Positions 22,266-57,466 of a stretch of DNA of 64,000 bases are shown one piece after another. The notes below the pieces were generated by a model. That model did not search any database and was not told the origin of the DNA. It saw only the letters and a list, made by a program, of their open reading frames with translations. The position numbers and the translations under genes are program-made. Each line of letters begins with the position of its first letter. Position 1 is the first letter of the stretch. The DNA is taken from contig NZ_AXWW01000024.1 in assembly GCF_000482865.1 (NCBI RefSeq), positions 1 through 64,000 on the forward strand, in the 5' to 3' direction. This stretch comes from Actinokineospora inagensis DSM 44258 (GTDB lineage Bacteria > Actinomycetota > Actinomycetes > Mycobacteriales > Pseudonocardiaceae).

Positions 22266-22350
22266 GGCACTGCCTCCGGCTGGACCAGGTGACGGGCTGG
22301 TGGTGCGCGCGGCCGGGATCGGCTGCTCGCGGCCACCAGGGTGGTCGCGC

Positions 22351-22415
22351 GGGCTAAAGGCGGGCTTGCTGTTCGCGGCCGGCCGTTCCGGCTCGGATTG
22401 GCCCGCCTTTAGCGG
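22351..22415. promoter_or_regulatory. SARP-like heptamer repeats between P450 and ferredoxin genes
   Basis: On the plus strand, GGGCTAA (22351) and GGGCTTG (22362) are exactly 11 bp apart. On the minus strand, CCGCTAA (22415-22409) and GGGCCAA (22404-22398) are also 11 bp apart. Between them the region forms a perfect 13-bp inverted repeat, GCTAAAGGCGGGC at 22353-22365 and GCCCGCCTTTAGC at 22401-22413. Each half points toward one of the divergent genes, about 110-140 bp from the start codons. The 19-bp sequence GGGCTAAAGGCGGGCTTGC recurs with three changes before the PKS. Confidence 0.65.
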
Positions 22416-22479
22416 TGGTCCCTACCGTCGGCCACGGCGGGCCCGCGCCGAGTCGGGTCGCCACGGCGAGGGGACGGCC

Positions 22480-22674
22480 ATGCGGGTGGAGATCGATCAC
22501 GACGTCTGCGTCGGCGCCGGGCAGTGCGCCGCCTCCGCGCCGGAGGTGTTCGACCAGGGGGACACCGACGGCCTGGTGCGGCTGCTGCGCCAGCCCGCGG
22601 CCGCCGACCAGGCCGCGGTGCGCGAAGCGGTGTGGTTGTGCCCCTCGGGGGCCGTCCGGGTCGTCGAGGACTGA
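22480..22674 (+). CDS. [3Fe-4S] ferredoxin
   Basis: This 64-residue P450-type ferredoxin has cluster ligands C10 and C16 in CVGAGQC and C54 in WLCPSGAV. The cysteine that would make a 4Fe-4S cluster is replaced by Ala/Gly (position 13), typical of [3Fe-4S] SoyB/Fdx proteins that feed CYP105/107 enzymes. The acidic middle (EVFDQGDTDG) is usual for docking. The ATG follows CGAGGGG. It is divergent from the first P450 gene and shares its repeat-containing promoter region. No ferredoxin reductase is in the window, so reducing power presumably comes from a housekeeping enzyme. Confidence 0.92.
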   Translation: MRVEIDHDVCVGAGQCAASAPEVFDQGDTDGLVRLLRQPAAADQAAVREAVWLCPSGAVRVVED

Positions 22675-22708
22675 GCCCGCGCCCGGACGGCCCCTCCCGG
22701 GGCGGGTG

Positions 22709-24205: not shown

Positions 24206-24261
24206 GGCGCACCCCCCTTTGCTCGTGCGGGCGCGGTGTCCCGACCGCGCCCGCGGGTGGA

Positions 24262-24729: not shown

Positions 24730-24769
24730 GGAATGCTCCTGTAGTCGGTGGTTACACTGCGGATGAGTT

Positions 24770-24811
24770 GGAGGACTTTCTCCGGTTGCCACGATATGGA
24801 GAAGTCCCTCC
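24770..24811. promoter_or_regulatory. Tandem GGAG-N6-CTCC palindromes (candidate TetR operators)
   Basis: GGAGGACTTTCTCC (24770-24783) and GGAGAAGTCCCTCC (24798-24811) share the GGAG-N6-CTCC plan. Their centres are 28 bp apart, on the 112-bp spacer between the divergent NTF2-like and TetR genes. The arms of one unit also resemble the reverse complement of the other. The position fits autoregulation and control of the exporter operon. Confidence 0.5.
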
Positions 24812-24841
24812 GTATGTCAACCTGGCTGGCGAGGTGGTCGG

Positions 24842-25645
24842 ATGGTGGCGAACCGAACGGGTGAACAGGACACCGGCGACGCGGCGGCGCCCAAGCGGGC
24901 GGACGCCCGGCGCAACCGGGCCCGCGTGCTGGCCACGGCGGCCCGGCTGCTCGCGGTCGACGGCGTGTCCGTGTCCTTCGACGAGATCGCCCGGCAGGCC
25001 GGGGTCGGCGTCGGCACCGTGTACCGGCACTTCCCGACCAGGGAGGAGTTGTTCGGCACGGTCGTGCTGGACGGCATGCGGCAGTTGACCCTGCGGGCCG
25101 ACGAGTTGGCCGGTGCCGACGACGACCCGGGCGCCGCGTTCTTCCGGTTCTTCTTCCTGATGGTCGAGCAGACCGTGGTCAACAAGGCGCTCTGCGAGGC
25201 GTTCGAGGACCCCGCCGGGCCGGGTTCCGCCGCGGCCGCCGACCCGGGCGCCTCGCTGGCCTTCGAGACCGCGCTCGACCGGCTGCTGGCCAAGGCGAAG
25301 GACGTCGGGGCGGTGCGCGCGGACCTGACCGCGACCGAGGTCCGCGTGCTGGTCGTGGCCGCGGTGATGGCCGCGCGGGCGCACGAGTCGACCGGCTTCA
25401 CCTGGCGGGTGGCCGCCCTGGTCGCTGGTGGCCTGCGGCCGGACGACGGGCGGGTCCCGCTGCCTGCGCCGGGTGCCGATGTCACGAAACTCGCCCCGGA
25501 TGCCTGTCACGAAACTGGGCGGGCAGCGGCGCGCTGCGAGGTGTGCGGCGAGCCGATCGCGGTCGGCCGCCCCGGCCGCCCCGCCCGGTTCTGCGGCGCC
25601 ACCTGCAGGCAACGCGCGCACCGGGACCGGAACCGCGCGCTTTAG
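24842..25645 (+). CDS. TetR-family regulator with C-terminal zinc-ribbon-like tail
   Basis: This 267-residue protein has an N-terminal TetR DNA-binding helix bundle (ARVLATAARLLAVDGVSVSF, then IARQAGVGVGTVYRHFPTRE) at about 22-75, followed by an all-helical ligand domain to about residue 205. A tail then adds CEVCGEP, an Arg/Pro-rich loop and RFCGATCRQRAHR, with four cysteines in CxxC plus CxxxC spacing. This resembles the small CRQRAxR zinc-binding modules common in actinomycetes and is unusual on a TetR regulator. It probably represses the divergent NTF2-exporter operon through the tandem palindromes and may sense the product or an intermediate. The second P450 lies 65 bp downstream. Confidence 0.88.
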   Translation: MVANRTGEQDTGDAAAPKRADARRNRARVLATAARLLAVDGVSVSFDEIARQAGVGVGTVYRHFPTREELFGTVVLDGMRQLTLRADELAGADDDPGAAFFRFFFLMVEQTVVNKALCEAFEDPAGPGSAAAADPGASLAFETALDRLLAKAKDVGAVRADLTATEVRVLVVAAVMAARAHESTGFTWRVAALVAGGLRPDDGRVPLPAPGADVTKLAPDACHETGRAAARCEVCGEPIAVGRPGRPARFCGATCRQRAHRDRNRAL

Positions 25646-25657
25646 CGCGTCTTTGCC
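25640..25657. promoter_or_regulatory. SARP-like repeat pair upstream of the second P450
   Basis: CTTTAGC (25640) and CTTTGCC (25651) are direct repeats exactly 11 bp apart. On the other strand they read CGGGCAAAG and GCGCTAAAG, the same GCTAAAG core seen in the P450/ferredoxin and PKS promoter regions. They overlap the end of the TetR gene and lie 54-71 bp before the P450 start, a plausible activator position. Confidence 0.5.
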
Positions 25658-25710
25658 CGGCGCGCAGACGATGGTGCTCGCTCCCACCCGACCCCTGGAT
25701 GCGAGGTTCC

Positions 25711-26949
25711 ATGACGCACACCGACAGCGCGTCCGCGCGGGCGGACGACGAGAACACCGAGCTCATCCCGTCGTTCCCGCAGGCCAGGACCTGCCCGTAC
25801 GCCCCGCCGGACACCCTGCTGCGGTTGGCCGGGCAGGCCCCGCTGTCCCGGGTCCGGCTCTACGACGGCCGCGAGGTCTGGCTGGTCACCGGGTACGCCC
25901 AGGCCCGCGCGCTGCTCGCCGACCCGCGGGTCTCCGCCGACCGCACCAACCCCGACTTCCCGATCGTGGCGCCGCGGCTCAAGGCCGCGCACGCCCGCAA
26001 GGTCCCGCTCATCGGGGTCGACGCCCCCGAGCACGACGCGCATCGCAGGCTGCTCAACCCGACCTTCGCCCTCAAACGCGTCCAGGCGACCCGGCCGCGG
26101 GTCGAGGCCGTCGTCGGCGAGCTGCTCGACCGGCTCGTCGAGCACGGGCCGCCCGCGGACCTGGTGCGCGGTCTCGCGGTGCCGCTCCCGTCGATCCTCA
26201 CCGCCGAACTGCTCGGCGTCCCCCTCGACGACATCGAGTTCTTCCAGGACGCCACCGAGCGGACGATGAACTCCACCGACGCCGACGGCCTGCAGCGCGC
26301 CGCCGTCGAACTGCAGCAGTACATGGTCCGCCAGGCGGTCGAGCAGGAACGCGAACCCGGTCCCGGCCTGATCGGGACCCTGGCCGGGCACGTGCGGGAG
26401 GGGACCATCAGCCGCGCGGAGATGGTCCAGATCCTCTACGTGCTGCTCATCGCCGGGCACGAGACCACCTCGGGTTCCATCGCGCTGGGGATCGTGACAC
26501 TGCTCGAACACCCCGAGCAGTGGGCCCAGTTGCGGGCCGACCCCACCCTGGCGCCGACGGTGGTGGAGGAGTTGCTGCGGTTCGTGGCCGTCACCGACAC
26601 CGCGGGCCTGCGCGTGCTCACCGACGACATCGAACTCGACGGCATCCGGCTGTCCAAAGGGGATGGTCTGCTGCTGTCGGCGAGCCTGGTCAACCGCGAC
26701 CCCACCGTGCACGAGAACCCGCACTCGTTCGACATCCACCGGGCGAGCAGGCGCCACCTCGCGTTCGGCCACGGCGTGCACCAGTGCGTCGGCCAGCACC
26801 TGGCCCGACTCGAGTTGGAGGTCGTCTTCGAGGCGTTGCCGCGGCGTTTCCCGGACCTGCGCCTGGCCGTCCCGGTCGACCGGCTCCCGTTTCGCGGCGT
26901 TGACCTCGGGCCGGTCCAGAGCCTGCTGGAACTCCCGGTCATCTGGTAG
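25711..26949 (+). CDS. Cytochrome P450, second of two
   Basis: This 412-residue class I bacterial P450 has an I-helix AGHETTSGSI, K-helix VEELLRF and heme loop FGHGVHQCVGQHLARLEL with Cys359 as thiolate ligand. It resembles the first P450 throughout (for example ADPRVSADRTNP and VTLLEHPEQW), so both fall in the same broad CYP105/107-like group but are not recent duplicates. ATG 25711 is chosen for GAGG five bases upstream; an ATG four codons earlier is poorer. It probably performs a second oxidation on the polyketide using the same ferredoxin. It converges on the PKS operon across a strong hairpin terminator. Confidence 0.92.
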   Translation: MTHTDSASARADDENTELIPSFPQARTCPYAPPDTLLRLAGQAPLSRVRLYDGREVWLVTGYAQARALLADPRVSADRTNPDFPIVAPRLKAAHARKVPLIGVDAPEHDAHRRLLNPTFALKRVQATRPRVEAVVGELLDRLVEHGPPADLVRGLAVPLPSILTAELLGVPLDDIEFFQDATERTMNSTDADGLQRAAVELQQYMVRQAVEQEREPGPGLIGTLAGHVREGTISRAEMVQILYVLLIAGHETTSGSIALGIVTLLEHPEQWAQLRADPTLAPTVVEELLRFVAVTDTAGLRVLTDDIELDGIRLSKGDGLLLSASLVNRDPTVHENPHSFDIHRASRRHLAFGHGVHQCVGQHLARLELEVVFEALPRRFPDLRLAVPVDRLPFRGVDLGPVQSLLELPVIW

Positions 26950-26967
26950 CCGGGGCGGCTACCGCAT

Positions 26968-27009
26968 ACGAAGGACGAACCGCCGACCGATCGGCGGTTC
27001 GTCCTTCGT
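26968..27009. terminator. Bidirectional hairpin between second P450 and PKS
   Basis: ACGAAGGACGAACCGCCGA (26968-26986) pairs perfectly over 19 bp with TCGGCGGTTCGTCCTTCGT (26991-27009) around CCGA. It lies 5 bp from the PKS stop codon and 18 bp from the P450 stop, ending both convergent transcripts. Confidence 0.8.
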
Positions 27010-27014
27010 GGTGT

Positions 27015-30000
27015 TCAGGTCGCTCGGCCGAGCTCGTTGTCGATGAACGCGAGTAGGTCGCCCGCGGATGCCGTGTCGAGCGGGTCGCCTGTGTCCACCG
27101 GGTTGTCTGTCGGGGTTTCGGTGGGGACTTTGGTCAGCATGGCCCGCAGGAGGGCGGCCAGCCTGCCGCGGGACTCGGTGTCGAGGTCAAGCGAGCCCAG
27201 TGTCGAGTTGAGCCTGCCCAGTTCCGCCAACACCGCCACCGCCGGTGGTTCCGGCTCGGGCACGATCCTGGTGTAGAGGTACCGGCTGAGGTCGGCGGGG
27301 GTCGGGTGGTCGAACACGATGCTCGCGGGCAGCCGCAGGCCGGTCGCGGTGGCGAGTCGGTTGCGCAGTTCGACCGCGGTCAGCGAGTCGAACCCGAGTT
27401 CCTTGAACGGGCGCCGCGGTGCGACGGTGTCCAGCTCGCCGTGTCCGAGGACGGCGGCGACTGTCCCCTGCAGCAAGGTGAGCACCTCCGCGCGGGCCTC
27501 CGAAGTGGGCAGTGCGCCCAGTCGGTCGACGAGCCCGGTGGGCGACGGTGCCGCCACCACTCGACGTGGGTTCGGGCGGGCGAGGTCACGCAGTACCGCG
27601 ATGTCCGGGTCCAGCCGCGACCGGTCCAGCCGCGCGGCCACCAACTGCGGGTGCCCGGCGGCGACCGCGGCGTCGAACATCGCCAGTCCCTGCTCGTCGC
27701 TGAGTGCCAGCACACCGGAGGACGCCATCCGGGTCGCGTCGACGGCGCCGGTCATCGCGCTCGAACCGGCCCACAGACCCCAGTCGAGCGACACCGTGGG
27801 CAGGCCGAGACCCGCTCGGTGGCTGGACAGGGCGTCCAGGAAGGCGTTGGCCGCGGCGTAGTTCGCCTGCCCCGGGTTGCCGAGAACACCCGCCAGGGAG
27901 GAGAACAGCACCAGGGTCACGTCCTCGCCCAGGAGCGAGTGCAGGTGCCATGCGGCGTCGAGTTTGGGCCGCAGCACCGAGTGCAGTCGCTCCGGGGTCA
28001 GGTTCGCCACGAGCCCGTCGTCGAGCACGCCCGCCGCGTGCACCACCGCGGTGAGCGGCACGTCCGAGACGACCCGGGCGAGTGCGTCGCGGTCGGCGGT
28101 GTCGCAGGCGATCACGCTCACCCGGGCGCCGAGTTCGGTCAACTCGTCGACCAGGTCCGCGGCTCCTGCGGCGTCTGTGCCCGCGCGGCTGGTCAGCAGC
28201 AGGTCGCGGACACCGTGCGCGGTGACCAGGTGGCGGGCCACCCGGGCGCCGAGCAAGCCGGTGCCGCCGGTGATCATGACCGTGCCGCGCGGATCGATCC
28301 CGGTCGGGATGGTGAGCACGACCTTGCCGACGTGCCTCGCCTGCTGCAGGTGCCGGAACGCGGCGCGGGCGTCGTGCACGGGCCACGGGGTGATCGGCGG
28401 TGGGGTCAGCGCCCCGGCGGCGAACAGGGCAAGCACCTCGGCGAGCATCGACCGGATCCGGTCCGGTCCGGCCTCGTGCAGGTCGAACGACCGGTAGCGG
28501 ACCCCGGGGTGGTTCTCGGCGACGTCCTCGGCGGCGCGCAGGTCGGTCTTGCCCATCTCGATGAACCGCCCGCCGTGGGGGAGCAGCCGCAGCGACGCGT
28601 CGGTGAACTCGCGGGCGAGCGAGTTGAGCACGACGTCGACACCAGCGCCGGCGGTGCGGTCGGCGAACTCCGGCTCGAAGTCGAGCGTGCGGGAGTTCGC
28701 CAGGTGCGCCTCGTCCACTCCGAGCCCCCGCGGGACGTACCACTTGGCGGGGCTCGCGGTCGCGTACACCTCGGCCCCCACGTGGCGCGCGATCTGGGTG
28801 GCGGCGACACCGACACCGCCACTGGCCGCGTGCACCAGGACCCTCTCCCCGGCGCGCAGGTCGGCCAGGTCGACGAGGGCGTAGTAGGCGGTGAGGTAGG
28901 CGATCGGCACGGCGGCGGCGCGGGTGAACGACCAGCCCGCCGGGATCGGGGCCAGCAGCCGCCGGTCGGTGACGGCGAGCGGGCCGACCGCGTTGTCGAT
29001 CACACCCAGCACCCGGTCGCCCGCGGCGAGGTCGGTGACCCCCGGGCCGGTCTCGACCACGACCCCGGCCCCTTCGGCGCCGATGGCGATGTCGCCGGGG
29101 TAGAGACCGAGCGCCATCAGCACGTCCCGGAAGTTCAGGCCGGCCGCGCGGACCGCGACCCGGACCTCGCCGTCGCGCAGCGGCCGGGTCGGTTCGTCGG
29201 TGGCGCGGGGTGCGAGTGCGTCGATGGAGCCGGTACCGGGGGTGTCCAGGACCCAGGGCCCGCCCGCGGGCAGGTCGGTGCGCTCGACGAGCCGGGGCGC
29301 GAGCAGTCGGCCGTCGCGGATAGCCAGTTGGGGTTCACCGGTGGCGATGGCGGCCGACAGGTCCGGGTGGTCACCGTCGACCAGGTCGACCAGGGTGATC
29401 CGGTTTGGGTGCTCGGCCTGTGCGCTGCGCACCAGCCCCCACAGCGGGGCGCTCGCCAGATCGGTGACCTCGCCGTCGACGGCGACCGCCCCGCGGGTGC
29501 GGACGACCAGCCGGGTGTCCGCGGTTCGCTCGTCGGCCAGCCAGCTTTGCAGGCAGGACAACAGTTCCGCGGTTCGCGAGTGCCCGGCGGCGATGATGTC
29601 GTCGGGATCGGCGAAGATCCGGTCGAGCACGACAACAGCGGGCAGTTCGTCCAGTGTGGACAGACGGTCGAGCTCCGACGGGTCGGTGACGATCAGGTGG
29701 TCGGGGCCGGAGTCGGGTGCGGGCGCCGGGATCCAGTCGAGCTGGAACAGCGTCTGGTGGGGTGGCTTGCCCAGCCTGCCGGGGTCCAGCGGTCGGGTGC
29801 GAAGTCTCCCGATGGTCGCGACGGGCGTGTTGTCGTTGTCGGACAGCGTGATCGCGGTCGTGCCGTCGTCGTTCGCGGTGAGGCGGGCGCGCAGCGACCG
29901 GGGGCGGGTCTGGTGCAGGGTGACCGACTCCCAGGAGAACGGGAGGGCTGGTTCGGTCGGCGTCCGGGTGATCAGCAATGGGTGCAGGGCCGCGTCGAAC

Positions 30001-33000
30001 AACGCCGGGTGGACGGCGTGGTCGGCCGGGTCGACGTCCTCGGGCAGGCTGACCTCGGCGTAGGTCGTGGTGCCGTGTCGCCACGCCTTGCGCAGGCCGC
30101 GGAAGGCGGGCCCGTACTCGTAGCCCTGCTCGGCCAGTCGGGTGTGCACGTCGGTCAGGTCGAGTGGGGTGGCGTCCGCGGGCAGCCACTCGGTGGTGCC
30201 CACAGTCGGGTCGTTGGTGTCGTTGGTGTCGTTGATGAAGGTCGCGCTCGCGTGCCGCGTCCAGGTCTCGTCGGCCTGCCTGGAGTGGACGGTGAGGGTG
30301 TCGCCGGTGACGGTGACCTGCAGTTGGGCCGGGGAGTCGGTGAGGACGAGCGGCGCCTGCAGGGTGAGTTCGGCGATCCCGGCGTGCCCGGTCTCCTGGG
30401 CGGCGTGCAGGGCGAGGTCGAGGAACGCCGTCGCGGGCAGCAGGACCGTCCCGAACACGGCGTGATCCGCCAGCCACGGCGGGGTGGCGCGGGAAATCCG
30501 CCCGGTGAAGACGGTCCCGGTCCCGTCGGCCAACGGGATGGCCGCCGCCAGCAGCGGGTGGCCTGCCCGGGTCTGGCCTGCCGAGGCCACGTCGCCGGTG
30601 GTCGGCGCCGGGAGCCAGTACGTCCGGCGCTGGAAGGCGTAGGTGGGCAGGTCGACCCGCCGGGCGCCCGGGAACACGGTGTCCCAGTCGGGGGAGACAC
30701 CGTTGAGGTGGGCCTCGGCGAGCGCGGTGGTGAACTGGCGCAAGGTGCCCTGATCGCGGCGGAGAGTGCCCAGCGCGGTCGCGGAAGTGTCCGCGGAGCC
30801 TGCCGCCACGCTGCCGGTGAGCACCGGGTGCGGGCTGGACTCGATGAACACCGCGTGGCCGGAGTCGATGATCGTCTCGACGGTGTCCTGGAACCGCACC
30901 GGGTTGCGCAGGTTCTGGTACCAGTAGTCGGCGGTCAGCCGGGCGGTGTCGAGGAGTTCGCCGGTGTAGGTGGAGTAGAAGGGGATCTCGGCCGGTGTCG
31001 GCGTGATGTCCTTGAGGGCGCGCAGAAGCGGTTCCCGGAGGGCTTCCATGTGTGGTGTGTGCGAGGCGTAGTCGACGGGGATGATCCGGGCGCGCACGTC
31101 TCGCGACTCGTACCAGGTGTGCAGGTGGTCGAGTTCGTCGGCGTTGCCCGCGATGACGGTGGCCGTGGGCCCGTTGGTGGCCGCGATGTGCAGGTCGGCG
31201 TGGTTGGCGATGTCGGCGCTGACCTGGTCGGCGGCCAGGGCGATGGACATCATGCCGCCCGCGGGGGCGGTGGTGGCGATGGCCTGCGACCGCAGGGCGA
31301 CGATCTTGGCCGAGTCGTCGAGTGACAGCGCGCCCGCGATGTGCGCGGCGGCGATCTCCCCTTGGGAGTGGCCGATCACCGCGGCCGGGTGGACGTCGTG
31401 GTGTCGCCACAGCCGGGCCAGCGACACCATGACCGCCCAGAGCGCGGGCTGCACCACGTCGACGCGCTCGAGCGCCGCGGCGTCCGGCAAGACGTCGAGC
31501 AACGACCAGTCGACGTACGGGGCCAGCGCTTCGGCGCAGGCGTCGAGGTTCGCGGCGAACACGGGGGATTCGCGGTAGAGGTCGACGGCCATGCCCGCCC
31601 ACTGCGAGCCTTGACCGGGGAACACGAAGACCGGTTTGGCGGCGCTCCCGTTCCCGGTCACCACGTTCGCCGCGGGCAGGCCGGTCGCCAGGGCGACGAG
31701 ACCGGCGCGCAGTTCGGCGACCGTGTCCCCGAGAACCGCCGCTCGCTGGTCGAACGCCGTGCGGCTCACCGCCAGCGAGTAGCCGATGTCGGCCGCCGGT
31801 ACCTCCGGGTGTGTGTCCAGATAGGACAGTAGGCGCTCGGCCTGGTCGGCGAGCGAGGTGGACTTGGTCGAGAGCACGAACGCCACGGGGTTCGCACCGG
31901 GCTCGCGCTCGACCGGCCGCGCGGCGGGTGCCTCCTCCAGGATGACGTGGGCGTTGGTCCCCGAGATCCCGAACGAGGACACCCCGGCTCGACGCGGTCG
32001 CCCGTCGGCGGGCCACTCGACCGGTTCGGTGAGCAGCCGCACCGGGCCGGACTCCCAGTCGACGTGCGGGGACGGGGCGTCCACGTGCAGGGTTCGCGGG
32101 AGCGTGCCCCGCAGCATCGCCATGACCACCTTGATCACCCCGGCGACGCCTGCGGCGGCCTGGCTGTGGCCGACGTTGGACTTGACCGAGCCCAGCCACA
32201 GCGGCCGCTCCCGGTCCCTGCCGTAGGTGGCCAGCAGCGCGGTCGCCTCGATGGGGTCGCCGAGGGTGGTTCCCGTGCCGTGCGCCTCGATCGCGTCGAT
32301 GTCCGAAGTGGACAGGTTGGCGTTGGCGAGCGCCTGCTCGATGACGCGCTCCTGCGCGGGCCCGTTGGGCGCGGTGAGACCGTTGGAGGCACCGTCCTGG
32401 TTGATCGCGCTGCCCCGGACCACCGCCAGCACCGGGTGCCCGTTGCGTTCGGCGTCGGACAGGCGCTCCAGCAACAGCAGACCGACCCCTTCGGACCAGG
32501 AGGCACCGTCGGCCGAGGCGGCGAACGACTTGCACCGGGCGTCGGGGGACAGCCCGCGCTGGCGGCTGAACTCCACGAACAGTTGCGGGGTCGCCATCAG
32601 CGTCACCCCACCCGCCAGTGCCAGGTCGCAGTCGTTGTCGCGCAGTGCCCGGGTGGCCAGGTGCAGGGCAACCAGGGACGACGAGCAGGCGGTGTCCACG
32701 GTGACCGCGGGCCCTTCCAGGCCGAGGGTGTAGGACACCCGCCCGGACGCGATCGAGGCCGCGCTGCCGGTGCCGATCATGCCCTCGTACTCCGGCGGCA
32801 CCTGGTGCACGCGCGAGGCGTAGTCGTTGTACATCACCCCGGTGTAGACGCCGGTTCGGCTGCCGCGCAGCGAGCCGGGAACGATCCCGGCCCGCTCGAC
32901 CGCCTCCCACGCGGTTTCCAGCAGCAGCCGCTGCTGCGGGTCGGTCGCCAGGGCCTCGCGCGGGCTCATGCCGAAGAACGCCGGGTCGAACTCGCCCGCG

Positions 33001-38375: not shown

Positions 38376-38409
38376 CCGGCCTGACTCTCCTCGCCTAGGG
38401 GTGCGGTGC

Positions 38410-44400: not shown

Positions 44401-47400
44401 GACCGCGCCGTCGTCGACGACACCGGCCGCGTGCACGACCACCGTCAACTGAAGGCCCGCCATGACCTGCGCCAGCGCGGCCCGGTCGGCCGCGTCGCAG
44501 GCGACGACCCTGACCCGGGCGCCCAGGTCGTTCAACTCGGCCACCAACTCGGCCGCGCCGTCCGCGTCCCGGCCGCGCAGGCTGAGCAACACCAACTCGC
44601 GGAAACCGTGGCGGCGCACCAGGTGCCGGGCGATCAGGCCACCCAGCCGTCCGGTGCCGCCGGTGATCAGCGCGGTGCCCACGGTCAGCTCGGCGGCCGC
44701 AGGATCGTCTACTGTGGTCAGTCGAGGCCGGTGGACCCGCCCGGTGCGCACGAGCGCCTGCGGTTCGGTGGTCACCGCCGGGTCGGCGCCGATGTCGCTG
44801 TCAGAATCCACGAGGCCGAACCGGCCGGGGTGTTCGAGCTGGGCGGCTTGGACCAAGCCCCACACCGCTGCCGCGGCGGGGGCGGGGTCGACGGTGTCCG
44901 CTTGCAGGTTGACCGCGCCCCGGGTGGCGAAGACGAGCCGACCGGGCGCCGTGGCGAGCCAGTGCCGCACCAGTGCCAGCGCCCGGTGTGTCAGGGAACG
45001 CGCGTCGGACGTCGTCGGGACCGCGGTGACCAGGACCGCCGCCGAAGTGTCCCAAGTGGACTCGTCGGACCAGTCCGCGGCGACGGCGGCGACCGGCTCG
45101 GGGTTGGTTTCGGTCCAAGACAGGGCGAACAACTCGCCCGTCCGGCCTGCCGGGACCAACTGGTCGGTCGGGACCGGTCGCAGCGTGATCCCCGCCGCCG
45201 ACAGCACGGGGACACCGGTCGGGTCGGCGACCACCAGGGCGTACGAGTCGGGGCCGGTGGCGGTCAGCCGGACGCGGACCCGGTCGGGAGCGGCCGCGTG
45301 CGAGCGGACCCCGGACCACGCGTGCGGCAGCAGGACCTCGCCCCGGTCGAGCCGTTCGACCGCCAGGACGTGCAGCACCGAGTCGAGCAGCGCGGGGCTG
45401 ATGGTGAACGGCTTTACCTCGGGCGGGAGCGCGACCTCGGCGAACAGGTCGTCACCGGCCCGCCACGCCGCCACCAGTCCGCGCAGCGCGGGACCGTAGT
45501 GGTAGCCGCGCTCGGCCAGCCGGGGATAGGCGTCGGTGAGGTCGATCGGGGGAGCCGCGGGCGGCCAGGTGGTGAGGTCGTCGGGATCGGCGGTGGGCTC
45601 CGGGTCCAGCACCCCCACCGCGTGCCGGGTCCACGGTCGGTCCTCGGTGGTACGGCAGTGGATCTCGAACGCCCGCCTGCCCAACTCGTCCGGCACCGCC
45701 ACTGCGATCTGCACCGATGGGGTCGCCTCGGTCAGCACCAGCGGCGCGGTGATCGTCAGATCCGCCACCGCGCCCGCGCCGAGGTGCCCGGCGACGTGCA
45801 GGGCGAGGTCGACCCAGGCGGAGCCGGGTAGCAACACCGTGTCGGCGACAGCGTGGTCGGCCTGCCACGGGTGGCTGCCGGGGGACAACGCGCCGACGAA
45901 CAGGTGTCCTTGGTCGCCCGCGAGGTCGACGGCCGCGGTCAGCACCGGATGCCGGATCCCGCCCGGGGCGACGGGGCGCTGCTCGGCGGTCAGCCAGTAC
46001 CGCCGCTCCTGGAACGGGTACGTGGGCAGGTCGACCGCCCGCGCCCCCGGGTACACCGTGTCCCACCGCACCGGCACACCCCGCACGTGCGCGATCGCCA
46101 ACGCCCGGTTGACGGTGCTGCTCTCCGGGTGTCGGGGGCGCAGCAGCGGGACGGCCACGGTCGAGTCGTCCGGCAGGCAGTCGGCCGCCGCCGTGCTCAG
46201 TGTCGCGTCCGGGCCCAGTTCGAGGCAGGTGGTGACTCCGTTGTCCACCAGGCACCGCACGCCGTCGAAGAACCGGACGGTCCGCCGGATGTGGGTCACC
46301 CAGTACTCCGGGTCGGCCAGTTCGGCGGCCGCGGCGATCCCGCCGGTCACGTTCGACACCACCGGGATCGTCGGCGGGTGGTAGGTCAGGCCCCGAGCGA
46401 CCTGGCGGAACTCGGCCAGCACCTGGTCCATGTGGGCGGAGTGGAAGGCGTGGCTCACCCGCAGCCTGGTCACCTTGCGCCCCATCGCCCGCCACCGGTC
46501 GGCCAGCGCCAGCGCGACGTCCGGATCACCGGAGACCACCGTCGAGTCGGGACCGTTGACCGCGGCGATCGACACCGCCGCCGCGTGCTCGGCGATCTCG
46601 GCGGCGACCTCGGCCTCGGCGACCCGTACCGCGATCATCGCCCCGCCGGTCCGGGCCGCGCCCATCAGCCTGCCCCGGGCGGCGACCAGCACGCACGCGT
46701 CCCGGAGCGAGAACACCCCGGCGACGTGCGCGGCGGCCAGCTCACCGAGCGAGTGCCCGAGCAGCAGGTCCGGTGCGACGCCGTGGTGTTCCAGCAACCG
46801 GAACAGCGCCACCTCCAACGCGAACAGGGCGGGTTGGGCCAGGTCCGTGCCGCTCAGCACGTCCGGGTCGTCGGCGAACATCTTGTCGCGCAACGGCTGT
46901 CCGACAAGCGGGTCGAGGAGCGGGTCCAGGTGCGCGCACACGGCGTCGAGTGCCTCGGCGAACACCGGGTGCCGTTCGTAGAGGTCCCGACCTGCGCCGG
47001 GGCGCTGGCTGCCCTGACCGGTGAACAGGAACGCGGTCTTGCCGGAGTCCGCCGACGCGGTCGCCGTCCAGGCGTGCTCGGACAACGCGGTGACGAGTTC
47101 GTCCCGGTCCCGGCCGACCACGGCGGCCCGCCTGGGCAGGACGGCACGACCGGTGGCCAACGTGAACGCGACGTCGGACGGGTCGGTGTTCTTGTCGCGC
47201 AACCAGTCCGCCAGTTGGTCGGCTTGAGCGCCCAGCGCGTCGTCGTCGTGCGCGGACAACGCCAGGACCAGGTCGCCGAGCGGTGCGGATCCGGATGGAG
47301 CGGCTGGCTCGTCGCCGCTGTTGTCGGGCGACTCCAGGATGGCGTGTGCGTTCGTGCCGCTGATGCCGAACGACGACACGGCGGCCCGGCGCGGCCGATC

Positions 47401-50400
47401 CCGCTCCGGCCACGCGACCGACTCGGTCAGCAGCCGCACGCCACCGGCGGCCCAGTCCACGTGCGGGGACGGCTGATCCGCGTGCAGTGTGCGCGGCAAC
47501 CGGCCCGCCTGCATGGCCATCACCATCTTGATCACGCCGCCGACCCCGGCCGCGGCCTGGGTGTGCCCGATGTTCGACTTGATCGATCCCAGCCACACCG
47601 GGTCGGCCGCGGGGCGCGCCCGGCCGTAGACGGCCAGCAGCGCCTGGGCCTCGATCGGGTCGCCGAGCGCCGTGCCGGTGCCGTGCGCCTCGACCGCGTC
47701 GACGTCGGCGGCGGTCAGGTTCGCGGCCGCCAGCGCCTGGGTGATCACCCGCTGCTGGGACGGCCCGTTCGGCGCGGTCAGCCCGTTGGAGGCCCCGTCG
47801 GAGTTGACCGCCGTGCCGCGCACCACGGCCAGCACCCGGTGCCCATTGGCCTTGGCGACCGACAGACGTTCCAGCACGAGCACGCCGACGCCCTCACCCC
47901 AGCCGGTGCCGTCCGCGTCCGCCCCGAACGACCTGCACCGCCCGTCCGGGGACAACCCGTGCTGCCTGCTGAACTCCAGGAAGATGTGCGGGTCGGCGAT
48001 CACCGCGACGCCACCGGCCAGCGCCAGGTCGCACTCGCCCGAGCGCAGCGCGCCCGCCGCGAGGTGCAGGGCGACCAGTGAGGACGAGCACGCCGTGTCG
48101 ACGGTGAGGGACGGCCCTTCGAGGCCGAAGGCGTAGCTGATCCGGCCGGATGCCACGCTCGCCTGGTTGCCCACCAGCAGGAACCCCTCGAACCCGGCGG
48201 GGGCCGGGCGCAGCCGCGAGCCGTAGCCGCTGTCCATGACCCCGGTGAACACCCCGGTCCGGCTGCCGCGCAGACCGCTCGGGTCGATGTTGGCCCGCTC
48301 GAACGCCTCCCAGGCCGCGCGGAGCAACAGCCGCTGCTGCGGGTCGGTCGCCATCGCCTCCCGCGGGCTCATCCCGAAGAACCCCGCGTCGAACAGGTCC
48401 GCGTCGGCGAGGAAGCCGCCGTGCCGGGTGGCGACCCCGCCCGGGTTGTCCGGGTCCGGGTCGTAGAGCTCGGCCAGGTCCCAGCCCCGACCAGGGGGGA
48501 ACTCGCCGATGGCGTCGGTGCCGGTCGCGACCAGCCGCCACAGGTCGTCGGGCCCGCGGACCCCGCCGGGGTAGCGGCAGCTCATGCCGATGATCGCGAT
48601 CGGCTCGTCCGCCCCGGTGGCGGTGACGGCGGGCGGCCGGTCGGTCGACCCGCCCAGCAGGGCCGCGCGCAGGTGGGCGCCGAGCAGGGCGGGAGTGGGG
48701 TGGTCGAAGATCGCGGTGGGGGAGAGCCGCAGGCCGGTCGCGGTGGTGAGCCGGTTGCGCAGGTCGACCGCGGTCAGCGAGTCGAACCCGAGCTCCTTGA
48801 AGGCACGGGCGATGTCCACCAGCGCCGGGTCGGGGTGGCCGAGCACGGCCGCGGCCTGGGCGCGGACCAGGTCGAGCACCAGTCGGTCCTGCTCGGCGTC
48901 GTCGACCCCGCGCAGGCGCGCCACCCACGACGGGTCACCAACGCCCGCTCGAGCGGCCTGGCGGATCCGAGGTGGGGCGAGCGACCGCAGCACCGCGGGC
49001 ACGTCGTCGCGGGTGCGCAAGGCGGCCAGATCGAACCGCACGGGTAGTTGGTGCGGCGCGGGATCGGCGATGGCGAGGTCGAGCAACGCCAGCGCGGGCT
49101 CCGCCTGCATCGGCTGGATGCCCGACCGCGCCAGCCGGGCGACATCCGCCGCGGCGAGGTGCGCGGTCATGCCGCTCTCGTCGGCCCACAGACCCCACCC
49201 CAGCGCGGTCGCGGGCAGACCCGCGGCGGCGCGGTGGTGGGCCAGGGCGTCCAGGAACGCGTTGCCCGCGGCGTAGTTGGCCTGACCGGCGTTGCCGGTG
49301 GTGGCCATGACCGACGAGTAGAGGACGAACGCCACCAGGTCGAGATCCCGGGTCAGCTCGTGCAGGTGCCACGCCGAGTCGACCTTCGGGCGCAGCACCC
49401 GGTCGAGCCGGTCGTCGGTGAGCGCGGTGACCGTGGCGTCGTCCAGGACACCGGCGGTGTGCACGACGGCGGTGAGCGGGTGCGCGGCCGGGATGGTGTC
49501 GAGCACGGCGCGCAACCGCTCCCGGTCGGCGGTGTCGCAGGCGGCGATGGTGATCTCGGCGCCGTGCGCGGTCAGCTCGGCCTCCAGCTCCAGCGCGCCC
49601 GGCGCGTCCGGACCGCGCCTGCTCACCAGCAGCAGGTGCCGCACGCCGGCCGCGTGCACCAGGTGCCGGGCCAGGTTCGCGGCCAGCACCCCGGTGCCGC
49701 CGGTGATCAACACCGTGCCCGACCGGTCGAACTCGACCGGGTCCGCCGCGGCGGCGGGTGCGCGTACCAGCCGCGGCACCAGGGTTGTCCCGCCGCGCAG
49801 CGCGACCTGTGGCTCCTCGGTCGGTACGGCCTCGAGGGGTTCGGTATCGGTGTCGGCACCACTGTCGCCGTCGACGAGTGCGAACCGGCCGGGGTGCTCG
49901 GACTGCGCCGAGCGGAGCAGGCCCCAGACCGGCGCGGCGGCCAGGTCGAGGACCGGGTCGTCCGGCCCGGTGGCCACGGCGTGCCGGGTGACCACGACCA
50001 GCCGCACGTCGGCCAGCCGGTCCTCGGCGAGCCACCGGCGCACCAGGTCCAGTGCGCTGCGCGCGGCCTCGTGCGCGGACTCCGGCAGCGCGCCGCCGCC
50101 CGATACCCGCACCGCCACGGTGGTGGGCAGCGGGTCGGTCAGCAGCGTGCCGAGGTCGTCGGTCGGGGTGATCCACCGGTCCGGCGCGGCGGTGCGCACC
50201 GGGGTCGCCGACCAGTCCACTGTGTACAGGCAGTCCCGGCGACCGGTGCGGTCCCGGTCGAGCAGTTCGGCGGACATCGGGCGCAGGGACAGCTCGTCGA
50301 CCGTGATCACCGGGGCGCCGTCGGCGTCCACCAGGGAGATCTCCACCGTGCCCGGCCCGATCGGTCGGATCCTGGCCCGCGCGGCGGTGGCGTCGGTGGC

Positions 50401-53400
50401 GTGCAGGGTGATCCCCGACCACGAGAACGGCAACCTGGTGGGGCCCGGGTGGTCCGCCGTGAGCAGACCCGCGACCACGGGGTGCAGGGCGGCGTCGAGC
50501 AACGCGGGGTGGATGCCGTGGCCGGTGGGGTCCGTGTCGTCGGGCAGGGCCAACTCGGCGTACACGGTGTCCCCGTGGCGCCAGGCTTCGCGCAGGCCCT
50601 GGAAGGTCGGCCCGTAGTCGTAGCCCAGGGACACCAGGTGTTCGTAGAGGTCGGTGAGGTCCAGGCGTTCGGCGCCTGGGAGCGGCCACTCGGCGTCGAC
50701 GGCGGCGGCCCGGGGACTCCCGAGAACGCCGGTCGCGTGCCGGGTCCACGGCTCGTCCCCGTCCCCGGAAGGTCGTGAGTGGACGGTGACAGTGCTCCCG
50801 GTGACGGTGACCTGGAGTTGGACCGGGGAGTCGGTGAGCAGGAGTGGCGCCTCCAGGGTGAGTTCGTCGACTGTGATGTTGCTGGTGTTGCCGACATTGC
50901 CGATGTTGCCCGCGTGCCGTGCGGCGTGCAGGGCGAGGTCGACGAACGCGGTCCCCGGCAGCAGCGGAGTCCCGTGCACCGCGTGGTCGCCCAGCCAGGG
51001 GTGCGAGGTGAGCGAGACCCGGCCGGTGAGCACCGTGCCGGTCCCGTCCGCGAGCGGGATCGCCGCCGCGAGCACCGGGTGGTCCACTGTGGACTGGCCT
51101 GCCGAGGTCACGTCGGTCGCGATCGCCGCGGTGAGCCAGAACCGCTCCTGCTGGAACGGGTACGTGGGCAGGTCGACCCGGCGGCCACCGGGGAAGGCGG
51201 CGGACCAGTCCGGGGTGGCGCCGTGGACGTGGGCCTCGGCGAGCGCCGCGGTGAACTGGGCCAGGTCGCCCCGGTCGCGGCGCAGGGTTCCCAGCGCGGT
51301 GACCCCGGTGAGTCCGCCGGTCAGCACCGGGTGCGGGCTGCTCTCGATGAACAGCGTGTGCCCCGACTCGACGATCGCCTTGACCGCAGGGTGGAACCGG
51401 ACCGGGTTGCGCAGGTTGCGGAACCAGTAGTCGGCGGTCAACTCGGTGGTGTCGAGGAGTTCACCGGTCAGCGTGGAGTAGAACGGGACGGTGGCAGGCT
51501 GGGGGTTGGTGCTCGCGAGGAGGGTGAGCAGCGGCTCTCGCAGCGCCTCCATGTGCGGGGAGTGGGAGGCGTAGTCGACGGGGATGATCCGGGCCCGGAC
51601 GTCGCGGGACTCGTACCGTTCGTGCAGTCGTCGCAGGTCGTCGGCGGCACCGGCGACCACGGTGGCCGCGGGCCCGTTGATCGCGGCGAGGTGCAGGTCG
51701 TCGTACTCGGCGATGTCACCGCGCACCTGGTCGGCGGGCAACGGGATCGACATCATCCCGCCTGTGCCCGCGGTGGCGGCGATGGCCTGCGATCGCAGGG
51801 CGACGACCTTCGCCGAGTCGGCCAGGGTGAGTGCGCCCGCGATGTGCGCGGCGGCGATCTCGCCCTGGGAGTGGCCGATGACGGCGGCGGGTCGCACACC
51901 GCGGCTCTCCCACAGCCGCGCCAGGGAGATCATCATCGCCCACAGCGCGGGCTGGACGACGTTGACGCGGTCCAGTCCGGGCGCGCCGGGACGGGCGTGC
52001 AGGACGTCGACCAGCGACCACTCCACGTGCGCCGACAACGCCTCGGCGCAGGCGTCCAGGTGCCGGGCGAACACCGGCGACTCGCGGTAGAGGTCGACGG
52101 CCATGCGTTCCCACTGCGATCCCTGACCCGGGAACACGAACACGGGCTCGCGGTCCGTCGTGGCGGGTACCGGGGTCGTGCCCTCGGCCAGCGCGGCCAA
52201 CCCGGCTCGGAGTTCGTCCAGGTCCCGACCGACCGCGGCGGCCCGGAACGGGAACCGTGCCCGGCCGGTGGCCAGCGAGTAGCCGACGTCCAGCGGGTAG
52301 CCGACGTCCTGCGAGCGCACCGTGCCGTACACCCGGTCGCGCAGAACCCGGGCCTGTTCGCGGACGGCTTCCTCGGTGTGGCCGGAGAGCAACCAGGGGA
52401 CCGCGGCATCGGGGAGTTCGCGGTCGGCGAGCGGTCGCGCCGGCGCCTCCTCGATGATCAGGTGGGCGTTGGTGCCGGAGATGCCGAAGGAGGAGATCCC
52501 GGCTCGCCGCGGCCGTTCGCCGGGGTGCCACGGGGTCGCCTCGGTGAGCAGCGAGATCCCGCCTGCGGCCCAGTCGACGTGCGGGGTGGGTTTGTCGATG
52601 TGCAGGGTGCGGGGGAGGGTGTCGTGCCGGATTGCCATGATCATCTTGATCACCCCGGCGACGCCTGCGGCGGCCTGGGTGTGCCCGATGTTGGACTTGA
52701 TCGACCCCAGCCGCAGTGGCCACTCCCGGTCTTGGCCGTAGGTGGCCAGCAACGCGTCGGCTTCCATCGGGTCGCCGAGCACGGTCCCGGTGCCGTGCGC
52801 CTCGACCACATCGACGTCCGTTGTGGACAGACTGGCGTCGGCGAGTGCCTGCGCTATCACCCGTTCCTGGGCAGGCCCGTTCGGCGCGGTGAGGCCGTTG
52901 GAGGCGCCGTCGGAGTTCACCGCACTTCCCCGGATCACGGCGAGGACCGGGTGTCCGTTGCGCTCGGCGTCGGACAACCGCTCCAGCACCAGGACGCCCG
53001 CACCCTCGGCCCACGCCGTCCCGCCCGCCGACGCGGCGAACGACCGGCACCGTCCGTCCGCGGCCAACCCGTGTTGGCGGCTGAACTCCACGAACATGCC
53101 CGGCGACGCCATCACCGCCGCACCGCCACCCAGGGCGAGCGTGCACTCGCGGCGCCGCAGCGCCTGGACCGCCAGGTGCAGGGCCACCGCCGACGACGAG
53201 CAGGCCGTGTCGACGGTCAGCGCCGGACCCTGCAGGCCCAGCGTGTAGGCGATCCGGCCGGACGCGACGCTGATCGTGCTGCCGGTCAACAGGTACCCGC
53301 CGTGCCCGCCTGCCGCGTCGTGCAGCCGCGGCCCGTAGTCCTGGGCCATCGCGCCGACGAACACCCCGACCCGTTCCCCGCGCAGCCCGGTCGGATCGAT

Positions 53401-56400
53401 GCCCGCCGTCTCCAACGCCTCCCACGAGGTCGTCAACAGCAGCCGCTGCTGCGGGTCCATCGCCGCCGCCTCACGCGGGCTGATCCGGAAGAACCCGGCG
53501 TCGAACCGGTCGGCGTCGTGCAGGAACCCGCCGTGCCCGGTGGCGGACGCGGTCACCCCGTGCCGCAGCGCGTCCAGATCCCACCCCCGGTTGGTCGGGA
53601 ACTCCGAGATGGCGTCCACCTCGTCGGCTACCAGGTGCCACAGGTCCTCGGCGGACGCGACACCCCCGGGGAACCGGCAACCGATGCCGACAACGGCGAT
53701 CGGGTCGTCCACGGCGACCGCCGCCGCTGTCGTGGCGCGGCTGGTCTTGCCGAGCAGTTCATCGCGCAGGTGCTCGGCAACCCGCGCGGGTGTGGGGTGG
53801 TTGAACAGCAGCCCGGCGGCCAGGCGCAGGCCGGTCGAGGTGCCCAGCCGGTCCCGGAACTCCACCGAGGTCAGCGAGTCGAAACCGAGGTCGGCGAAAC
53901 CGGCGTCCCCGGTCACCTCGTCCCGACGGTGCCCCAGCACCGCGCCGACCTGGGCGCGCACCAGGTCCAGCAGGAACCGGCGCTGCTCTGGCTCGCCCAT
54001 CCGGGCCAACCGGTGCGCCAGGCCCTCCACCCCGTCCACTCTGTCCACCGTGTCCACTCTGTCCACCGGGTCCGCGGAGTCCGGTGTTTCGGCCGGACGC
54101 TGCTCGCGGGGGAGCGGGGTGACCGGGTCGCCTATCCAGAAGCGCCTGCGCTGGAAGGCGTAGGTGGGCAGGTCGACGGTGTCGGTGGGGCCGAAGAACG
54201 CGGCCCAGTCCACGGTCGTCCCGCGCACGTGCAACCCGGCCACAGCGGACACCACGGCCTCCGGTTCGTCCTCGCCGCGCATCGCGGGCAGGAACGACGC
54301 ATCGGGGGCGACCTCGCGCCCCATCGAGCACAGCGTCCCGCCGGGCCCCAGTTCGAGGTAGGTGGTCACCCCGGCGTCGTCGAGCGCGCGGATGGCGTCG
54401 GCGAACCGCACGGTCCGGCGGACGTGGTCCACCCAGTACTCGACCGAAGTGGTGTCGGCGGCGGGGGTGCCGGTCACGGTCGAGACGATCGGGATCCGAG
54501 GCGGGTGGAACGTGACGCCCTCGGCGACCGCGCTGAACGCGGCCAACGCGGGCTCCATCAGTTCGGAGTGGAACGCGTGGCTGACCACCAGCCTCGTGGT
54601 CTTGCGGCCACGGGCGGCGAACTCTTCGGCGACGCGAACGGTCACCGCCTCCGCGCCGGACAGCACGATCGACCGGGGGCCGTTGACCGCTGCGACGGAC
54701 ACGCCGTCGGGAAGGTCGGACACCTCGTCCTCGGCGGCCGCCACGGAGATCATCACGCCACCTGCGGGCAGCGCCTGGATGAGCCTGCCGCGGGCCGCCA
54801 CCAGGGCAGCCGCGTCCGACAGCGACAGCACACCGGCCACGTGCGCGGCGGCGAACTCGCCGACCGAGTGCCCGGCCAGGTGGTCGGGCCGCACTCCCCA
54901 GGACTCGACCAGCCGGTACGACGCGACCTCGATCGCGAACAGCGCGGGCTGGGTGTACCGGGTCTGGTGCAGCGCTTCGGAGTCGGCCCACAGGACATCC
55001 CGCAGCGGCACGTCCAGGTGTGGGTCGACCGCGGCGCAGACCTCGTCCAGCGCCGCCGCGAACACCGGGAAGGTCTCGTACAACGAGCGACCCATCCCCG
55101 GTCGCTGGGTGCCCTGTCCGGTGAACAGGAACGCCAGCGCACCCGGAGCGGCCACGGCCGAGTCCACGCCCGCTGCCGGTTCTCCCGCGGCCAGTGCGCG
55201 CAGGCCGTCGACCAGGCGGTCACGATCACCGGCGACGACGGCGGCGCGGTGGTCGAACGCCTCCCGGGTGGTGGCCAGCGAGAAACCGACCCCAGCCGCC
55301 TCGATGTCCACAGTGGACAGCAAGCTGGCCGCCTGACCGCGCAGCGCGGCCGCCGACTTGGCGGAGAGCAGCAAGGGGACCGTCGCGGGAGCAGCGGCCT
55401 GCCGGGGCTCGGCGGTCGCCGCCTCGGTGAGGACCAGGTGGCAGTTCGTGCCGCCCATGCCGAACGAGCTGACACCCGCGTACCGCGGGCCACCCGGCCA
55501 GGGCGTCAACTCCTGTTGGACCCGCAGGCCCAGGTCGGCCAGCGGGATGTCCGGGTTCGGCGTGCTGAAGTTCAGGCTCGGCGGCAACTCGCGGTTGCGG
55601 AGGCTGAGCGCGGCCTTGAGCAGGCCGACGATCCCGGCCGCGCCCTCCAAGTGGCCCACGTTGGTCTTGGCCGACCCCACCCGCAGCGGCTCGGCGCGAT
55701 CCCGACCGAGCACCGCCCCCAACGCCGCTGCCTCGACCGGGTCGCCGACCTTGGTTCCGGTTCCGTGCAACTCCACGTACCCGACTCGGTCCGGGGAGAC
55801 CCCGGCGTGCCGGTAGGCCGCTCGCAGGACCTCCTGCTGGGACTTGACTCCCGGCACGGTCAGGCCCTCGGTCGCGCCGTCGTTGTTCACCGCGCCGCCC
55901 AGGATCACGCAGTGCACGCGGTCCCCGTCGGCCAGGGCGCTCGCCAGCGGCTTCAACACCACGACGCCGCCACCCTCGCCCCGGACGTAGCCGTTGGCCC
56001 GCGCGTCGAAGGTGTGACACCGGCCGTCCGGCGAGAGGCCGCCGAACCGGGCCGCGGCCATCGTGCTGTCGTCGAGGATGTTCAGGTTGACCCCACCGGC
56101 GATGGCCACGGTGGACTCACCGCGGCGCAGGCTCTCGCACGCCAGGTGCACCGACACCAACGACGACGACTGCCCCGAGTCCACGGTCACGCTCGGCCCG
56201 TGCAGGTCGAGCACATAGGACAGCCGGTTCGCCAGGATCCCCCGGTGGACACCGGTGATCGTGTGCGAACTGATCGCCTCGATGCCTTGCTGGTAGGACA
56301 ACCTCGCGTAGTCGTCCCAGATCGCGCCGACGAACACACCGGTCGCGGTTCCCCGCAACGCCGACGGACGCAGCCTGGCGTCCTCCAGGGCCTCCCAACC

Positions 56401-56709
56401 CAGCTCCAGCACCAACCGCTGCTGCGGGTCCATCGCCGCCGCTTCCCGCGGCGAGATCCCGAAGAACGCGGCGTCGAACTCGTCCACCCGGTCGAGGAAC
56501 CCGCCCAGCCGGTGCGGCAGCGCCGGATCGGTCCACCGCCCGGCGGGCGCTTCCCCGATCGCGTCCCGACCCGCGCGCAACAACTGCCAGAACGCGGCGA
56601 CGTCCGGTGCCCCGGGGAGCCTGCACGCCATCCCCACGACCGCGACCGGGATGGCGACCGGTTCCCCGTCCACCGTGGAGGTCACCTCAGCGGAGTCGAC
56701 CATCGCCAC
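38410..56709 (-). CDS. Modular type I PKS: KSQ loading module plus modules 1-3
   Basis: 6099 residues. The loading module has KSQ, with Gln180 replacing the Cys in [12 protein letters not shown]615 in GHSVG and HAFH at H711 (malonyl); and ACP S945. Decarboxylation should give an acetyl starter. Module 1: KS C1170, AT S1614 with YASH (Y1713, methylmalonyl), DH H1909, KR Y2479, ACP S2644. Module 2: KS C2874, AT S3320 with HAFH (H3420, malonyl), DH H3619 with Asp at the motif glycine ([10 protein letters not shown]), KR Y4155, ACP S4315. Module 3: KS C4543, AT S4982 with RAFH (R5081, probably malonyl), DH H5283, KR Y5818 with LAD instead of LDD, ACP S5983. The C-terminal [11 protein letters not shown] is a docking tail. 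Start is GTG 56709. All extension modules lack ER, predicting conjugated double bonds. Confidence 0.95.
52532..52709 (-). repeat. 178-bp stretch identical to 37090-37267
   Basis: Partner of the identical segment in the module 4 KS-AT region. The module 1 copy lies 15.4 kb away in the adjacent gene, in the same orientation. Recombination between the two would delete modules 1-3. Confidence 0.85.
54034..54069 (-). repeat. Tandem repeat in the loading-module to module 1 linker
   Basis: The 18-base unit GTCCACTCTGTCCACCGT is present almost twice, with a 6-base GTCCAC sub-repeat. It encodes a [12 protein letters not shown] linker after the loading AT. Similar 9-base repeats encode NDTNDTND near 30210-30236 and GNIGNVGN near 50878-50905 in DH regions. 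Confidence 0.7.
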
Positions 56710-56803
56710 GTTTCACCGCCTGTCTGCTCGACCGGTGCGCTGCCCACCGCGGCTGGTCGCGGGGCGCGCGGAACTCGGCGCTCGGAAGCCATGCTGGGAA
56801 ACC

Positions 56804-56864
56804 GGGCTTAAGGTCGGCTTGCCACCGGCTAAAGCTCGCCGCGGCAAGGGGTTCTTTAGAACCC
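56804..56864. promoter_or_regulatory. SARP-like heptamer array between the loading PKS and the barrel-MFS cassette
   Basis: Plus strand: GGGCTTA (56804), CGGCTTG (56815) and CGGCTAA (56826) are three direct repeats at exact 11-bp steps. Minus strand: GTTCTAA (56862-56856) and CCCCTTG (56851-56845) are also 11 bp apart. A 7-bp inverted repeat GGGTTCT/AGAACCC with a 2-bp centre covers 56849-56864. The array lies about 95-150 bp from the PKS GTG and 50-110 bp from the divergent barrel-protein ATG. It matches the P450/ferredoxin element in sequence and spacing. Confidence 0.7.
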
Positions 56865-57444: not shown

Positions 57445-57466
57445 TCGGGACGAACGGGAGGCGAAG

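Follow-up and report, generated by a model that had tools for sequence, protein, structure and literature searches.

What switches on the putative spirotetronate/abyssomicin-type polyketide synthase (PKS) cluster of Actinokineospora inagensis DSM 44258, and through which DNA element? The window analysed here is the 64,000-nucleotide stretch at positions 1 to 64,000 of contig NZ_AXWW01000024.1 (assembly GCF_000482865.1; contig C19 below), and a preliminary description of it had noted heptamer-like repeats at 11-bp steps together with a gene for a Streptomyces antibiotic regulatory protein (SARP) at 20181. Our answer is that the repeats are very probably SARP operators, through which a dimer of the protein encoded at 20181 (SARP 20181) would switch on seven transcription units of the cluster. 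The putative SARP regulon, already proposed in that description, is the best reading because the elements are 11-bp direct repeats that agree with a published operator rule, lie at a fixed short distance from a -10-like hexamer, recur in related clusters and have a SARP gene nearby. As a kind of system a SARP regulon is ordinary, and as such it is well supported by the sequence.

Direct repeats before seven transcription units

Read letter by letter, GGGCTTA, CGGCTTG and CGGCTAA at 56804, 56815 and 56826, and likewise GGGCTAA and GGGCTTG at 22351 and 22362, follow one another at 11-bp steps as had been described, with the 19-mers at 22351 and 56804 agreeing at 16 of 19 positions. The pair at 25640/25651 keeps the 11-bp step but not a motif shared on the forward strand, where it reads CTTTAGC/CTTTGCC; its likeness to the other repeats exists on the opposite strand only. 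GGCTAA and GGCTTG, previously regarded as the core heptamers, were dropped in favour of their complement, the GCAAG and CTTTAG types, because on that functional strand -10-like hexamers stand at constant distances ahead of start codons.

On the transcribed strand the sites share one design: an nGCAAG-like heptamer, 4 bp, an nCTTTAG-like heptamer, 10 bp and a -10-like NANNNT hexamer (Table 1). This design is found seven times on contig C19. The three promoters originally noticed thus become seven, in four intergenic regions of which three had been recognised, and the regulon has five promoters inside the window and two more at C19:74.1-74.2 kb, past the window end. The distance from the end of the hexamer to the start codon is 35-81 nt in six of the seven units; in the seventh, PKS 74117(-), hexamer and first start codon overlap, whereas a start at a methionine further into the frame, near 74036, would give 79 nt. 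Two sites carry a third repeat, GCTTTAG another 11 bp upstream at PKS 56709(-) and GGGCAAG at 74168 before the ketoacyl synthase III (KASIII) gene 74272.

In the published rule for SARP operators, repeats lie 11 or 22 bp apart and the 3' repeat lies 8 bp from the -10 element (PMC10936776). The heptamers here are direct repeats with that phase, the gap from CTTTAG to NANNNT is 10 bp, or about 9 bp when counted after an 8-bp AfsR-type repeat, and the genes downstream belong to a secondary-metabolite cluster with a SARP of its own. A matrix scan of contig C19 together with upstream checks gave no site before the TetR, SnoaL and MFS genes or before that of the SARP itself, and none of operator type before the indigoidine-type non-ribosomal peptide synthetase (NRPS) gene at 11153, which had been placed outside the regulon from the start.

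Rarity in the genome and recurrence in related clusters

Within the own genome, the 18-mer GGCTWAAGGYSGGCTTGC has two exact matches, which are the sites at 22351 and 56804, and at 2 mismatches two matches, one of them 10 kb past the window end before another PKS gene of the cluster. Two fixed patterns have no further genome match outside the cluster: GCAAG-N5-CTTWAG-N11-A-N3-T, with three exact matches, and WRG-N4-SCTTWRS-N11-A-N3-T, a pattern that four of the seven sites fit and that has four matches in 7.28 Mb (reversed control, five). CTTTAG itself occurs 61 times in 7.28 Mb, and seven of these copies fall within 51.8 kb (22354 to 74185) where 0.43 would be expected (binomial P 3e-7), a span delimited by its own outermost sites. 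The whole-genome motif search that the preliminary description called for thus bears out the confinement of near-exact sites to the cluster, but not an excess once mismatches are allowed. Because total counts show no excess over controls, it is the location of the near-exact sites that is informative.

Using the KASIII protein as query, we collected 80 loci in named genomes and scored the 320-bp stretches upstream of KASIII. A matrix built from the seven sites reaches at least 10 bits in 27 of the 80 upstream windows, as against 234 of 10,286 control windows drawn from these loci, some of the control matches being further sites before other genes. First-order shuffles of the 27 positive loci yielded no site of at least 16 bits. 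The phase is conserved as well: among the 16 CTTTAG copies found upstream of KASIII across the 80 loci, [AT]AG lies exactly 11 bp upstream in 13 and 22 bp upstream in three, with counts of 0 or 1 at other shifts from 6 to 24. NANNNT follows at a gap of 10 in 10 of the 16 and at a gap of 21 (10+11) in the remaining six, and in these an extra repeat-like heptamer lies in between, clear in five and weak in L062. Because of this additional heptamer, the element appears to slide by whole 11-bp repeats.

A hexamer count independent of the matrix found GCTTTA in 17 of the 80 upstream windows (0.75 expected) and CTTTAG in 16 (0.73 expected). TCGACT ranked above GCTTTA, and AAGGAC and CGACTC above CTTTAG; these three we take to be PKS 3' ends and ribosome-binding sites. 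When a matrix was built from 26 sites of other genomes, the seven sites took ranks 1 to 7 of 233,488 positions on contig C19, the site of P450 25711 ranking first, a partly circular result as the 26 were themselves best matches of the seven-site matrix; rank 9 drops to 8.7 bits.

Amycolatopsis sp. CA-126428 shares the gene block, with identities of 75% for the SARP, 83% for the P450, 70% for the MFS protein, 69% for SnoaL, 61% for TetR and 65% for the second P450. It retains the operators of P450 21036-22265 and P450 25711, and the repeats and -10 hexamers are present at the P450/ferredoxin divergent pair, the second P450, KASIII and the adjoining PKS, the promoters compared (the other PKS promoter was left out). 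A strict pattern (GCAAG, CTTTAG, ANNAT) gave three matches in 394 genomes of the class, all in one genus (L142, L143 and L144), with none in the control; it is insensitive, having no match in the window's own genome.

The proposed regulator and the rival explanations

The gene at 20181 does encode a SARP, an N-terminal OmpR-type winged helix followed by a BTAD domain, both above the Pfam cut-off, and its nearest solved relative is AfsR (1.4e-32). In each repeat AfsR makes contact with the first 8 bp, and it reads bases through T88 and R92 (PMC10936776). In the alignment these residues become V64 and Q68 of SARP 20181, while W74, P79, S91, R94 and K95 are kept. The resulting V-S-Q recognition helix is found in SARP 20181 alone among 17 SARP-domain loci of its genome (E 1e-10), one other of which has the triad T-G-D. 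A second SARP gene, whose product has the helix QTYVLRLRR and the triad T-L-R, lies at C19:87854-88660 (L010:3854-4660), 8.5 kb beyond the last of the tetronate-type genes. Among 57 SARPs (54 distinct) of genomes with a tetronate-type KASIII locus, V64 is present in all 57 and V-S-Q in 45, in a sample of 41 SARPs inside 39 of the 80 loci and 16 best matches to SARP 20181, which bias it, and from which matches shorter than 600 nt were dropped. A relative of SARP 20181 scoring at least 200 bits accompanies 27 of 27 motif-positive KASIII loci and 10 of 52 negatives (52 of 53 searched), a comparison that mixes BLAST bits inside loci with HMMER bits in whole genomes. The idea that the operator is confined to this SARP clade was abandoned, as clusters of the other clade also carry it, before genes other than KASIII.

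Helix and operator can also be compared outside the KASIII loci, in 34 SARP regions. At 16 bits, five of 10 V-S-Q regions have an operator match (8 matches, 183 kb) and none of the 24 others (430 kb) does, giving a Fisher P of 0.0009 with a cut-off picked after the scores were known; at 13 bits the counts are 5/10 and 5/24, which is not significant (P 0.12). Two other regions lie just below 16 bits, L169 (V-S-H; 15.9 and 15.0) and L177 (15.9), and overall similarity to SARP 20181 is a confounder of V-S-Q. Among the V-S-Q regions at 39-43% identity (L163, L181 and L171), two of three have a match. L163 is a type II PKS region (ketosynthase, cyclase) with its own V-S-Q SARP and has the site L163:4459 (-) before a polyketide cyclase gene; L165, a terpenoid/deoxysugar region (DXS, LytB, C-methyltransferase), has one site before a LytB-type gene. 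Tentatively, and with some doubt on our part, we suggest a code in which V64-S67-Q68 (AfsR T88-S91-R92) would specify GCAAG/YWAG-N5-CTTTAG-N10-NANNAT; it might hold across many genera, for the SARPs of tetronate clusters as well as for those of type II aromatic and terpenoid-sugar ones, and make the regulons of silent clusters readable from DNA.

Several results weigh against SARP 20181 acting through these sites. The half-sites are unequal, and the upstream half of the ferredoxin site is poor. Mismatch-tolerant searches show no genome excess over reversed controls, neither for the 18-mer at up to 3 mismatches (19 against 112) nor for GCAAG-N5-CTTWAG-N11-A-N3-T at up to 2 (15 against 58), and while the whole genome was scanned with fixed patterns, the matrix scan covered contig C19. 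Rank 8 of the other-genome matrix, at 18.1 bits, is C19:97172 (-), far outside the cluster. Directly before KASIII, 53 of the 80 related loci score below 10 bits; 39 of these hold at least one site of at least 16 bits elsewhere in the locus (including the AT-richer cyanobacterial L080, where the match is not trusted), and 14 have none. An example of the former is CCGCAAG aggg GCTTTAG N10 GACGAT, which precedes another gene in L039, L042, L047 and L051. Around the strict-pattern matches L142, L143 and L144 there is no SARP, KASIII or FkbH-like match in the stretches of 16, 20 and 6.4 kb covered. Lastly, clusters whose SARP is overall nearer to 87854 carry the operator as well, and for this reason co-occurrence alone does not name the regulator.

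The last point bears on the suggestion that SARP 87854 is the main protein to bind these operators, or that both SARPs do so. This protein is encoded on the same contig and is about 45% identical to SARPs of operator-carrying Streptomyces clusters. Its T-L-R triad, however, departs from the helix of the 57 SARPs above, their sampling bias granted, and Amycolatopsis keeps SARP 20181, not 87854, beside the P450/ferredoxin/MFS block; we therefore consider it unlikely. Divergent sites do make inverted repeats, and with a TetR gene within the cluster the pairs 22351/22415 and 56804/56862 could be read as palindromic operators of TetR-family 24842 or of a LuxR-type regulator. We judge this very improbable, as the single promoter at 25640 and the KASIII sites of related loci have direct repeats in 11-bp phase with a fixed -10 gap, and as an unrelated inverted repeat (24770-24811) sits between the TetR and SnoaL genes.

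Equally improbable is the proposal that CTTTAG...NANNNT forms the -35 and -10 boxes of an alternative sigma factor. It would account for the fixed distance of the hexamer, but -35 and -10 boxes need more than 10 bp between them, and six of 16 sites have a gap of 21 with a repeat-like heptamer between. Chance, or common descent of GC-rich promoter sequences, draws on the shortness of the motifs, the non-independence of related loci and the lack of a mismatch-tolerant excess. We regard it as the remotest of these explanations: CTTTAG is rare yet clustered here, near-exact full sites are confined to the cluster in fixed-pattern genome searches, and the spacing is kept across several genera though the surrounding promoter DNA looks unrelated.

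If SARP 20181 is the activator, it would bind as a side-by-side dimer, one protomer on each 11-bp repeat, across the 4-bp spacer between the nGCAAG-like and nCTTTAG-like heptamers. As in the initiation complex of AfsR (PMC10936776), the dimer may occupy the place of the -35 box and hand sigma region 4 and RNA polymerase onto the weak -10 element that starts 10 bp downstream, whereby the seven units would be activated together. Where there are three repeats (56791-56835; from 74168), an additional protomer may bind.

Predicted regulon, neighbouring genes and known systems

The predicted regulon comprises two P450s, a ferredoxin, two giant PKS operons, a barrel/exporter unit and the tetronate-type KASIII operon.

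Table 1. Putative operators (with -10-like hexamer), proposed activator and proposed target genes; positions are those of contig C19
Feature	Position	Strand	Sequence or support
SARP gene, 257 aa, proposed activator, helix HVYISQLRKF	20181..20954	+	PF03704 2.8e-44, PF00486 1.3e-11
Cytochrome P450, proposed target	21036..22265	-	Pfam p450 3.2e-33
Operator, P450 21036-22265	22338..22371	-	CAGCAAG cccg CCTTTAG N10 CACCCT
Operator, ferredoxin 22480	22395..22428	+	GGATTGG cccg CCTTTAG N10 TACCGT; upstream half-site weak
Ferredoxin, proposed target	22480..22674	+	Pfam Fer4_19 8.9e-11
Operator, P450 25711	25639..25672	+	GCTTTAG cgcg TCTTTGC N10 GACGAT
Cytochrome P450, proposed target	25711..26949	+	Pfam p450 4.4e-30
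Two giant type I PKS genes (38410-56709, 27015-38375), proposed target operon	27015..56709	-	KS and AT active-site motifs by text search
Three-repeat operator, giant PKS genes 56709-27015	56791..56835	-	GCTTTAG ccgg TGGCAAG ccga CCTTAAG N10 CAGCAT
Operator, barrel/MFS/barrel unit from 56911	56842..56875	+	CGGCAAG gggt TCTTTAG N10 TAGTCT
AOC-like barrel, MFS exporter, second AOC-like barrel, proposed target unit	56911..59458	+	AOC_like 5.1e-15, 1.5e-23; MFS_1 1.1e-48
Type I PKS genes 59534-63679, 63639-74117 (runs past window), proposed target operon of C19:74116-74149(-)	59534..64000	-	
Operator, PKS 74117(-), outside window	C19:74116-74149	-	CCCTAGG acag CCTTTAG N10 GACGAT
Operator, KASIII 74272, outside window	contig C19	+	CCTTTAG cggc TCTTTGC N10 GACGAT

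PKS 59534-63679 was identified by Pfam (ketoacyl-synt 6.9e-95) and PKS 63639-74117 by active-site motifs. Clusters for tetronates (spirotetronates, abyssomicins) combine KASIII, FkbH-like, ACP, E2-type acyltransferase and hydrolase genes with a neighbouring modular PKS. In the tetronate-type region, KASIII, PP-binding, 2-oxoacid_dh acyltransferase and alpha/beta hydrolase genes were matched by Pfam; the frame L009:11303-13207 had no Pfam match and is, by our own reading, a candidate FkbH-like gene. The two AOC_like matches, both in the barrel/exporter unit, may be AbyU-type spirocyclases, which are AOC-like barrels of spirotetronate clusters. An imperfect 14-nt inverted repeat (24770-24811, 79% complementary) surrounds the start of the SnoaL gene, on the side facing the TetR-family gene 24842, and is a candidate TetR operator; the abyC-abyD palindrome offers an analogue (PMC3625739). 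Also in the window lie a single-module NRPS gene, 11153-15166, with adenylation, carrier and thioesterase domains, consistent with an indigoidine synthetase, and, directly upstream of the SARP gene, a gene for an nSTAND1 NTPase with WD40 repeats (15831-19898).

What emerges is how an entire antibiotic-type pathway is probably switched on, with a predicted membership, the tetronate-type operon in and the indigoidine-type NRPS out, and a pattern with which dozens of related clusters can be searched for such a switch. The helix-operator correspondence is broader than this regulon and testable; if true, one could select from sequence which activator of a silent cluster to overexpress.

Among known systems, the afs box of the afsS promoter in Streptomyces coelicolor is alike in having two 11-bp direct repeats just before a weak -10 element, CACTGT (PMC10936776, PMC10972967). 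Compared with its repeat CGTT(T/C)ATC, GCTTTAGC keeps the third and fourth T, whereas here the repeats finish with AG, and GCAAG or CTAG is frequent in the upstream half. In the proteins, V64/Q68 stand where AfsR has T88/R92, and SARP 20181 is a small SARP that lacks the NOD and TPR parts of AfsR. The operators of PimR, SanG and PolR share the heptamer CGGCAAG and the 4-bp spacers (PMC3367932), the heptamer recurring here as the upstream half CGGCAAG at 56842(+) and as TGGCAAG at 56824(-). In contrast to them, the second half here is CTTTAG-like, and the sites lie at the -10 element of structural genes, whereas the PimR site is off its target's -35 element and drives a regulator gene (PMC3367932). 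Neither a CTTTAG-type SARP operator nor a helix-operator correspondence was found among the papers listed in the SARP/tetronate literature, a body in which subscription journals are mostly outside coverage.

Closest in pathway are ChlF2 (chlorothricin) and AbyI/AbmI (abyssomicins), cluster SARPs of spirotetronate pathways (PMC7471628, PMC3625739, PMC5819245), for which the available portions of these three papers give no operator. ChlF2 activates chlM and five other promoters, as seen with reporters, soluble protein for a gel shift not having been obtained (PMC7471628); deletion of abyI abolishes the product (PMC3625739), and abmI is a positive regulator (PMC5819245). Homology to chlM and chlD1-4 has been described for abyA1-A5 (PMC3625739), a gene order from which chlM is likely the KASIII gene, the counterpart of abyA1. 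The KASIII gene of the present cluster, their likely counterpart, is preceded by one of the three-repeat sites.

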